Below, piece by piece: positions 23,439 through 26,206 of a DNA stretch of 32,770 bases. Origin of the DNA: Phycisphaerae bacterium. GTDB taxonomy: Bacteria; Planctomycetota; Phycisphaerae; UBA1845. The notes beneath the pieces were generated by a model. That model ran no database searches and had not been told where the DNA came from. It was given only the letters and a program-made list of their open reading frames with translations. The DNA lies in the NCBI GenBank assembly GCA_029260025.1, contig JAJDDZ010000345.1:1-32770 (forward strand), in the 5' to 3' direction. Both the position numbers and the translations under genes were made by a program. Within the stretch, counting starts at the first letter, position 1, and the number at the start of each line of letters is the position of its first letter.

Positions 23439-23467
23439 TTGTCACTAGTGCCACATTTAGGTATATT
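23439..23467 (+). promoter_or_regulatory. Sigma-70-type promoter of mraZ
   Basis: TTGTCA (23439-23444) and TATATT (23462-23467) are separated by exactly 17 bases, 42 bases before the mraZ ATG. It is the best-formed promoter in the window and likely the main promoter of the dcw cluster. Confidence 0.6.
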
Positions 23468-23508: not shown

Positions 23509-23994
23509 ATGAAGTTTTTCACAGGGCAATATGATCGATCGATCGACGCCAAGAACCGGATCCAGCTTCCATCGCAGCTCAGAGCTGTCGTGGACGAGAC
23601 TCGTGACGGTTCCGGCTTGGTCGTCACTCTCGGCGAACATCGTGGGACGCTATCCATTTTTACAGAGCGTGGGTTTGAAGAGCTTGCGGTCAGAGTCGAA
23701 ACGGAGTTCGAGTCTGGACCCGAGTGGCTGCGGTTTGAGCTTCAGTTCTACGCCCTCGCATCGAGGGTCGAGGCAGACAAACAAGGACGTTTAGTCTTGC
23801 CCGATCCGCTTGTAAAAAAGTCCAGGCTCGCCGAAGAGGTGTACCTCGTCGGACGCAAGGACAGGATCGACATCTGGGATCGCGCCGACTTGGACCGAGC
23901 ATTGGGCATCGATTGGGAAGGCGACCAGTGGCCAGATTGGCCTCGCTATGTTCGAAGGAGACCAGCCTCGCCACAAGCCTCACCAAAGGAGTAG
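23509..23994 (+). CDS. mraZ: Division/cell-wall cluster transcriptional regulator MraZ
   Basis: 161 residues. Two SpoVT/AbrB-like halves each carry the DxxxR signature of the family: DAKNR in YDRSIDAKNRIQLPSQLR near the start and DKQGR in EADKQGRLVLPDPL near residue 95. The C-terminal ~30 residues (from WEGDQWPDWP) extend past the usual MraZ length of about 140-150. MraZ is a ring-forming DNA-binding repressor of the dcw promoter and heads the cluster here as in many bacteria. An upstream promoter is clear, and 262 bases separate it from rsmH. Confidence 0.93.
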   Translation: MKFFTGQYDRSIDAKNRIQLPSQLRAVVDETRDGSGLVVTLGEHRGTLSIFTERGFEELAVRVETEFESGPEWLRFELQFYALASRVEADKQGRLVLPDPLVKKSRLAEEVYLVGRKDRIDIWDRADLDRALGIDWEGDQWPDWPRYVRRRPASPQASPKE

Positions 23995-24057
23995 TCGCGG
24001 CAAGAAAGCAAAGAGCAAGCGATCGTAAAACAGGCCACCATCGCGTAGGCGGTAGAA

Positions 24058-24222
24058 GTGCAAGGATGCACCTCGCCCGCGCGAGCGGACGCAGGAAGTA
24101 AAGGACTAGGGCGGTGCGAGTGGCGGATAAGTCGCCATCGTGTGTACGTTGTCCTCAGACGCTACGTCTTCGGGCGTAACGGGCGCGAGCGTCCGCGTTG
24201 GGGGTGAGCGTCGCCACGGACG
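24058..24222 (+). ncRNA. Candidate structured RNA between mraZ and rsmH
   Basis: Helices visible by eye, in order: GTGCA/TGCAC (24058-24062 with 24067-24071, four-base loop); CTCGC/GCGAG (24072-24085); AGGAC/GTCCT (24102-24106 with 24151-24155) enclosing TGGCGG/TCGCCA (24121-24137), which continues by wobble pairs below; TACGTC-TTCG-GGCGTA (24163-24178), a cUUCGg tetraloop hairpin; and CGTCCG/CGGACG (24190-24195 with 24217-24222). The rsmH start codon follows 34 bases later. No protein frame fits. It could be a cis-acting leader controlling rsmH and the genes below it, or a small RNA. I do not recognise a known family; the actinobacterial mraW motif is in a comparable place, but I cannot show similarity. 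Confidence 0.42.
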
Positions 24223-24256
24223 AGTGACGACCCCCCGATTTGTTGGTTGACAGATT

Positions 24257-25174
24257 GTGTGCGAATCCGAATCGATAGGCCACACCCCGGTACTACCGGA
24301 AGAAGTTCGCGATCTACTCGCCGTAAGCGAGGGCGACATCGTTGTCGATGCAACGGTCGGCCTCGGTGGACATAGTTCACTTCTCGCCAAGGCGCTCGGC
24401 GCAAGCGGTAGGCTCATCGGACTGGACGTAGACCCTCTGAATCTAGACATTGCCAGAAAGCGCCTAGAAGGCGTCACCCCGCGCGTTGATCTCTTGCAAG
24501 GCAACTTCGCCGAGCTGGGAGAGCTTCTTTCCTCGCTAGAAATCGCCAAAGTAGATGTCATACTCGCCGACCTGGGCGTCAGTTCAACCCAATTGGATCA
24601 AGGCGATCGTGGCTTTTCCTTTCGTCATGATGGCCCCCTCGACATGCGAATGGACCCCCGCCTCGAGGTCACGGCCGAGGACCTGGTCAACCGCTGGAAA
24701 GAAGACGACATGAGCAGTGCGTTATACTACAACGCGCAAGAGTTTCGCTCGCGAAAAATCGCCAAACGAATCTGTCATGTTCGCCGTGAAGGTCGCATCA
24801 AAACAACCAAGGAATTGGCGGCCATAGTTTGTAGATCGATGGGCGTTTCAGACGGCAATTCTCGCCGATCCAAGATTCATCCCGCCACCAAAACCTTCCA
24901 GGCGTTGCGGATGGCCGTCAACCAAGAGATACCAAACTTAGAGACCCTTCTCGAAATCGCGCCTAACTTCTTGAACCCCGGCGGCCGAATTGGCATCATC
25001 GCCTTTCATAGCGTCGAGGATAAAGTTGTAAAACTCGACTTTCGCAAGCGGAAGAGCGAAGAGGTTTACCAAGTTTTGACGAAGAAACCTGTAACGGCTT
25101 GCGAAGATGAACGATTAGCCAACCCGCGATCCCGAAGCGCGAAATTACGAGTTGCCAAAAGGTTAAGCGACTAG
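24257..25174 (+). CDS. rsmH: 16S rRNA (cytosine(1402)-N(4))-methyltransferase RsmH
   Basis: 305 residues from GTG 24257; an in-frame stop just upstream rules out earlier starts, and the ribosome site is poor. The start HTPVLPEEVRDLL, the SAM-binding VDATVGLGGHSSLLA, the motif ADLGVSSTQLD, the signature GPLDMRMDP and the end-region AFHSVEDKVVK are all diagnostic for RsmH (MraW). It methylates C1402 of 16S rRNA in the decoding centre. It is the usual second gene of dcw clusters. The weak start signal together with the structured spacer upstream suggests translational control. Confidence 0.95.
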   Translation: MCESESIGHTPVLPEEVRDLLAVSEGDIVVDATVGLGGHSSLLAKALGASGRLIGLDVDPLNLDIARKRLEGVTPRVDLLQGNFAELGELLSSLEIAKVDVILADLGVSSTQLDQGDRGFSFRHDGPLDMRMDPRLEVTAEDLVNRWKEDDMSSALYYNAQEFRSRKIAKRICHVRREGRIKTTKELAAIVCRSMGVSDGNSRRSKIHPATKTFQALRMAVNQEIPNLETLLEIAPNFLNPGGRIGIIAFHSVEDKVVKLDFRKRKSEEVYQVLTKKPVTACEDERLANPRSRSAKLRVAKRLSD

Positions 25175-25216: not shown

Positions 25217-26206
25217 ATGGCGAGTGAAACGAAAGTCGGACTACTCGCTGGACTGGCGTTTATCGTCGTCTTTGCGGTGATTCTCGCAAACCGAGGTCAA
25301 GTCGATCCGCTTCTCTCACAAAAACCTCTCTCGACTGAGCGTCACGTAATCCTGGGCGAGCAATCCGTCCCCAAGGACCACTATCAAGCGAGAAAAACCT
25401 CCGTCGAGCTTCCAAAAGAAGGATTTCAACCGAACCACGCCGTCAAAGCCAGAACGGATCACTCTCCCGATCCCGACCAGAGAATCCTAGGCGAGCGTGC
25501 CACCCATCGCCCACAACCAGCAAAAAAGACCCTCCCGGGAACGCGCAACATCACGTTCGCCAACCAGGAACTCTCGCCCCAGATCGCAATCGCCAACAAC
25601 CAACCTCGACCGCAAACCCGATTTCAAGAGATACAACCCAAAACGCAGATTCAATCCCCAGTATCCGACACGCAAGCCGTTGCTGCAAAGCAACCATTAG
25701 CTAATCCTCTAACACTACAACAACAGCTACCCTCTCAATTAGAGAAGCCGAAGGTTGCCGGGACAAAGTACGTCGTCCTCGCAGGCGACACGCTCTATGG
25801 CATCGCCGGGAAACATTACGCTAAGGGCGGGGGCAACGCAGTCCGCGCCATCGTCAAAGCAAACGGAGATACACTGCCCAATCCAGACAAGCTACGCGTC
25901 GGCACAGTCCTCGTCCTCCCAAAGCTTTCGCGCAACATCAAATCCAAGGCGAACCCGGCAGCTTCCGCTAGGAATAATCAACAGAAACAAGAACCAAAAA
26001 GAAAAACAAACACCGACCAGGGTTTCGACTGGTACCAGGTCAAAAAGGGCGACCGATACGCCAGTATCGCCAGAGAGAAACTAGGCGACGTAAAGCGATG
26101 GCGAGAGGTCTTCGAGCTCAACAAAGACAAGTTCCCCAACCCAGACCGCATCCGCGACGGCGTCTTAATCAAAATTCCAAAGTCAAAAGGGGGCAAAAAG
26201 GGTTGA
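25217..26206 (+). CDS. Membrane-anchored protein with two LysM domains
   Basis: 329 residues with CAGGAG ahead of the ATG. A single N-terminal membrane helix (about residues 6-25) is followed by a Pro/Gln/Lys-rich linker (about 30-180). Then come two LysM modules: about 183-235 (YVVLAGDTLYGIAGKHY...PDKLRVG) and about 271-323 (WYQVKKGDRYASIAREKLG...PDRIRDG), separated by a Lys/Gln-rich linker. LysM binds the glycan chains of peptidoglycan, so the protein should tether the inner membrane to the wall at or near the division site. It sits between rsmH and the FtsL-like gene, where typical dcw clusters have nothing of this kind, and its stop overlaps the next start. Confidence 0.88.
   Translation: MASETKVGLLAGLAFIVVFAVILANRGQVDPLLSQKPLSTERHVILGEQSVPKDHYQARKTSVELPKEGFQPNHAVKARTDHSPDPDQRILGERATHRPQPAKKTLPGTRNITFANQELSPQIAIANNQPRPQTRFQEIQPKTQIQSPVSDTQAVAAKQPLANPLTLQQQLPSQLEKPKVAGTKYVVLAGDTLYGIAGKHYAKGGGNAVRAIVKANGDTLPNPDKLRVGTVLVLPKLSRNIKSKANPAASARNNQQKQEPKRKTNTDQGFDWYQVKKGDRYASIAREKLGDVKRWREVFELNKDKFPNPDRIRDGVLIKIPKSKGGKKG

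Follow-up and report, generated by a model that had tools for sequence, protein, structure and literature searches.

A conserved and probably CsrA-binding RNA between mraZ and rsmH in one order of planctomycetes

Binding sites of CsrA/RsmE follow a simple rule, in which the protein recognizes the hexaloop ANGGAN (PMC7652899; also PMC4894983, PMC7366521). The small RNAs CsrB/CsrC and RsmX/RsmY/RsmZ of Gammaproteobacteria present several hairpins with ANGGA loops, the target that CsrA prefers (PMC7366521, PMC7652899), while the occurrence of FliW is anti-correlated with CsrB-type small RNAs (PMC7652899, PMC4894983). Small RNAs dedicated to antagonizing CsrA have been described in Gammaproteobacteria, which lack FliW. 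A second type of target is borne on mRNA. The leader of Campylobacter flaA contains a pair of ANGGA hairpins with compensatory changes, and is both controlled by CsrA and titrates it (PMC4894983). Two further RNAs come close in place or in name, namely the mraW RNA motif of Actinomycetales (RF01746) and the candidate motif TwoAYGGAY, which is listed for the human gut, Gammaproteobacteria, and Clostridiales and is given there without an Rfam accession (PMC2864571). Here, we describe a structured RNA between mraZ and rsmH in planctomycetes and compare it with these systems.

The conserved core of the mraZ-rsmH spacer

The window, meaning the whole 32,770-nucleotide stretch of DNA that was analyzed, belongs as contig C274 to a Planctomycetota MAG of 4.1 Mb (genome G000). 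The promoter, the genes mraZ and rsmH, and the spacer helices described below lie on the + strand. The open reading frame of mraZ (23509–23994), which tblastn matched to its counterpart in 32 of 36 relatives, is preceded by a sigma-70-like promoter (TTGTCA-17-TATATT, 23439–23467), the likely source of the transcript. The spacer that follows is 262 nt long (23995–24256), and rsmH (mraW, 24257–25174) begins with a GTG codon 17 nt past the last spacer helix, without a Shine-Dalgarno sequence; on the spacer length, the GTG start, and the lack of a good ribosome site, the sequence-only reading of this stretch was accurate. Judged by eye, the gene after rsmH (25217–26206) codes for a LysM-like protein whose N-terminus holds a membrane segment; this gene occupies the position at which the E. 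coli cluster has ftsL.

When relatives were searched at the DNA and protein levels, 31 distinct spacers emerged in which both genes could be placed. All of them come from the same family or order and measure between 262 and 782 nt, whereas outside this group, in other phyla as well as other planctomycetes, most mraZ-rsmH spacers are shorter than 100 nt or negative. The 3' stretch of the spacer is matched by plain BLAST in several genera.

Within the bounds 24034–24240, the minimum free energy (MFE) structure consists of exactly three elements: a hairpin P1, a middle domain closed by the helix P2, and a hairpin P3 (z −1.68). The span proposed earlier, 24058–24222, was wrong in that it truncates two hairpins, losing the 5' outer arm of the first and the 3' half of the last. 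Its folding energy is better than that of shuffled sequence, but modestly so (z −1.44, 16/200). The folding energy of the whole span, weak at z −1.4 to −1.7, was not used as evidence; P1 folded alone reaches a z of −3.3.

P1 (24041–24084) is made up of an 11-position outer stem and a 4-bp inner stem (GTGC/GCAC, 24058–24061/24068–24071), separated by an asymmetric internal loop with five bases in its 5' strand and a single base in its 3' strand. In an alignment of 12 P1 sequences that share the same register, a choice that favors the structure on percent paired, two-sided compensatory changes were present in 12 of the 15 pairs. They amounted to 40 cells, compared with 13.2 in shuffles and at most 11 in slid versions of the alignment, and the covariation score of 0.635 (0.267 when shuffled) was equaled by none of 500 shuffles. 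When all 21 P1 elements are counted in a fixed register, 64% of positions are paired versus 36–55% in the slid versions, a count that is diluted because the length of the internal loop varies.

P2 joins the sequence directly 3' of P1 (GCGGACGC, 24085–24092) to the sequence directly 5' of P3 (GCGTCCGC, 24189–24196). These strands pair in the MFE structure and compensate each other across 24 loci: strands from the same genome reach a mean of −18.3 kcal/mol, compared with −14.0 kcal/mol when they are swapped between genomes, with a p-value (3e-6) that is inexact because the genomes are related. P3 (24197–24239) is a GC-rich, terminator-like hairpin whose outer arms shift by 1–2 bases, while the inner stem hardly varies. 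Taken alone, P3 displays little covariation and does not pass the shuffle test; because the inner stem is near-invariant, it shows conservation, not covariation.

The conserved core of the spacer is thus a series of three successive helices, P1, P2, and P3, and its position is conserved as well. The middle domain inside P2 (24093–24188) folds into several hairpins, including the AGGAC/GTCCT-enclosed hairpin (24102–24106/24151–24155) and the C(UUCG)G hairpin (24168–24173). Both are present as the sequence-only reading described them, but they are lineage-specific filler outside the core and not its hallmarks. The shape of this domain is common only to the congener G001, whose loop is not UUCG, and in most relatives the same position is taken by an open reading frame or other sequence. 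Length is poorly conserved in the middle, whereas the position is preserved, as are all three helices. The proposal of a structured RNA heading the dcw genes is upheld by the strong covariation among related spacers and by its presence across the order.

An alternative fold was observed in which CTCGCCC of P1 (24072–24078) pairs with GGGGGTGAG of P3 (24200–24208). It is the MFE structure of the truncated span 24058–24222 and is not clearly kept in relatives; a switch between the two folds is possible.

Covariance models were built from P1 (R1) and from P3 (R2). In the genome of the window, each model returned a single match, located at the spacer (E 2.1e-8 for R1, 1.2e-6 for R2). Among genomes that were not used for building, both models matched the mraZ-rsmH spacers of G024, G028, G031, and G033 in the right order, while R1 alone matched the spacer of G058 and R2 alone that of G025. 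One match of R1 lies away from the spacer (G040:C54, E 0.002). In the rest of the phylum (294 genomes), R1 gave four weak matches with E-values of 0.002–0.008, which is about chance level.

ANGGA hairpin loops and CsrA

Across the 31 spacers, ANGGA occurs in hairpin loops 75 times on the + strand and once on the − strand, compared with a mean of 7.3 in dinucleotide shuffles. Per kb of spacer, such hairpin loops number 4.86 in close relatives and 3.98 in distant ones; the flanking genes, read on the same strand, have 0.57 and 0.71 per kb. Among all 256 hairpin-loop patterns of the form XNYZW, ANGGA stands at a z of 30.1 and the next pattern at 4.0. Most spacers hold two to five ANGGA hairpins, with up to 11 ANGGA motifs. 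In long spacers outside the order the motif is absent, except that L035 and L101 each have a single hairpin with it.

The window contains two such sites, the P1 loop C-AAGGAU-G (hexaloop 24062–24067) and the P3 loop C-ACGGAC-G (hexaloop 24216–24221, on the inner stem). A strict hairpin test scores only one of them, the stem of the P3 site being bulged. Together, P1 and P3 form two ANGGA hairpins ahead of the rsmH start codon, as in leaders of the flaA/hag type. The distance from the first base of the P3 ANGGA to the start codon is 41 nt in the window, where this codon is GTG, and 39–56 nt in most members. Since the P3 loop lies ~36–40 nt upstream of the rsmH start codon, CsrA bound there would not directly cover the ribosome site. 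Indeed, a check of positions in the window and in most members found no ANGGA site that overlaps the ribosome-binding site, unlike in flaA/hag-type leaders.

Some members carry additional hairpins. In L137 (G047:C189:7596-7697), the terminal ANGGA hairpin is present as a tandem duplication whose two copies, nearly identical, lie 49 nt from each other; TGTTTTT follows one of them. At their 5' end, the longer spacers (e.g. L121, L123, L138, L143) hold a further ANGGA hairpin and then the conserved sequence CGCAGCGAGTGGAA, which in the relatives sits some tens of bases past the mraZ stop codon; the window retains only a degenerate trace of it after the mraZ stop, TCGCGGCAAG.

The protein that would recognize these loops is widespread among the relatives. 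The csrA gene is present in 59 of the 60 relatives searched, including the genome of the window itself (G000:C306; PF02599, E 5.4e-25). Its product aligns with solved CsrA/RsmE structures along the RNA-binding core, including VHRKEVY, the segment with the RNA-contacting arginine. The gene fliW adjoins csrA, and FliW is likewise present in 59 of 60; beyond fliW, an open reading frame was read by eye as resembling a flagellin-type gene. Judging from the loop motifs, the spacer RNA very probably binds CsrA. The sequence-only reading had left the choice between a cis-regulator and a standalone small RNA open and had given no mechanism; the loops now point to CsrA.

Proposed cis action and alternative readings

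In our best reading, to which we give a probability of roughly 0.5, the mraZ-rsmH transcript carries in its spacer an element that binds CsrA and whose action on the dcw genes is most likely in cis. The odds that the CsrA-binding RNA works mainly in cis are, in our estimate, about even. In this mechanism, an mRNA starting at the mraZ promoter would carry the CsrA-binding RNA between mraZ and rsmH, with P1 and P3 each presenting an ANGGA hexaloop. P2 would set these hairpins next to each other, which could allow a single CsrA dimer, having two RNA-binding faces, to bridge them. Once bound, CsrA may lock or melt the GC-rich P3 directly before the rsmH start, and this change in P3 would alter the passage of RNA polymerase or ribosomes into rsmH and the dcw genes. 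The output of the cell-wall and division genes could thereby be tied to the CsrA-FliW flagellar switch. The binding of CsrA, the bridging of P1 and P3, the direction of regulation, the action in cis, and the effect on rsmH and the dcw genes are what we infer from the sequences.

The arrangement of the transcript is consistent with this. In 10 of the 31 loci a sigma-70-like site lies upstream of mraZ, compared with 2.9 expected, while a search for the same type of site inside the 31 spacers gave one against an expectation of 1.4. In most of the family, only ~17–34 nt separate the end of P3 from rsmH, which leaves no room for an rsmH promoter, so that the transcript should cross P3. This short gap, together with promoters that lie upstream of mraZ and not in the spacer, favors an element of the mraZ-rsmH mRNA.

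Alternatively, the RNA could end at P3 and act in trans as a sponge, either as a small RNA or as a processed 3' UTR of mraZ, titrating CsrA in the manner of CsrB and RsmX/Y/Z; we regard this as the main alternative, and as a less probable one. The number of ANGGA hairpins in most spacers resembles in kind the gammaproteobacterial sponges, and P3 looks like a terminator, with T runs in L124, L133, L138, and L148; on the + strand of the window, no terminator was called. Furthermore, in some distant members P3 carries a run of 5–8 T and lies 57–125 nt from rsmH, and in L138 it is followed by a promoter-like TATAAT box; the T run and the longer gap favor an RNA ending at P3 over a leader in these members. 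However, a run of at least five T follows P3 in few members only, and most P3 hairpins stand so close to rsmH that transcription must read through. Promoters inside the spacers are not above chance, as described above, and the window offers just two clear ANGGA sites. The presence of FliW in 59 of 60 genomes also argues against a sponge, given its anti-correlation with CsrB-type small RNAs. On balance, we give cis action a somewhat higher probability than a sponge. Both could possibly operate together, by analogy with the Campylobacter flaA leader (PMC4894983).

In about 17 family members (e.g. L121, L123, L126, L004, L005), the P2 loop holds an open reading frame of ~80 amino acids, which the middle domain replaces in the window. 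It is arginine-rich, with the consensus RLVRRIQ..., AELexRVRRLR..G..F..VRLS..VA; in several members it has a Shine-Dalgarno-like start, and in several it ends within P3. The product has no match in Pfam, NCBIfam, or PDB, which speaks against FlgM or another known family, and it appears to represent an undescribed small protein family that was lost in the genome of the window. These observations would allow for a more elaborate and rather doubtful proposal, a dual-function RNA family confined to one order that serves as a CsrA sponge, encodes in many members a small protein in the P2 loop, and links the division and cell-wall cluster to the CsrA-FliW switch.

We consider it unlikely that the structure serves another protein or a ligand and that its ANGGA loops are coincidental or Shine-Dalgarno-like. 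Loops with GGA or AGGAG do look like a Shine-Dalgarno sequence, but the base at position −2 of loop GGA is A in 56 of 84 cases, while all four bases (A, C, U, and G) occur at −1. An A at −2 combined with a free −1 base is the rule of CsrA, not that of ribosome binding. Moreover, ANGGA persists in unrelated hairpins of distant members, and csrA is nearly universal in the order.

The presence of the reading frame in relatives and its absence from the genome of the window could also mean that the structure is merely the leftover of a former 80-aa gene. This is very improbable: the frame is absent from G000, G001, G011, G013, G021, and G024, all of which keep P1 and P3, so that the RNA core is independent of the frame, and P1 lies outside it. 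Least likely of all is a divergent copy of RNase P RNA, of the mraW motif, or of another Rfam class, since, despite a place before mraW/rsmH that recalls the actinobacterial motif (PMC2864571), neither the window nor 20 homologous loci gave a meaningful Rfam match at permissive thresholds, including to RF01746 and the gammaproteobacterial CsrA-sponge families, in keeping with the initial impression of an RNA outside the known classes. RNase P RNA, which the long spacers had suggested, has its single match elsewhere in the genome (G000:C318, E 4.4e-97).

Comparison with known systems

In the literature on mraZ and CsrA, covered mainly through titles and with most subscription journals outside the search, no such RNA was found. 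The same held for mraZ combined with noncoding RNA and Planctomycetes, again with most subscription journals outside. Likewise, the literature searches returned no CsrA-binding RNA of planctomycetes, although csrA is present in nearly all of those searched.

Among the described RNAs, the mraW motif (RF01746) is likewise a structured RNA, named after mraW/rsmH (PMC2864571), but it belongs to a different phylum, and its covariance model does not match the spacer RNA. The TwoAYGGAY candidate, with its two AYGGAY elements, is likened here by name alone (PMC2864571).

The spacer RNA shares with CsrB/CsrC and RsmX/Y/Z the display of several ANGGA-loop hairpins. In contrast to these, it occurs in another phylum, without a promoter of its own having been found and without a match in Rfam. 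It is furthermore organized as P1-P2-P3 with a long-range helix, holds a fixed place between mraZ and rsmH, and co-occurs with FliW. If the proposal is true, control of CsrA by RNA and by FliW would exist side by side in the same bacteria.

The Campylobacter flaA and Bacillus hag leaders are closer in design, as they are likewise mRNA-borne ANGGA hairpins of FliW-containing organisms. They differ in that the sites of the spacer RNA do not overlap the ribosome site and in that the downstream gene is not flagellin but the 16S rRNA methyltransferase gene rsmH, followed by the division and cell-wall cluster. A CsrA-type RNA at this position suggests an undescribed link from a motility regulator to the genes of cell division. 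If this is true, the tie between division genes and motility becomes testable in bacteria in which swimming and dividing cells alternate.
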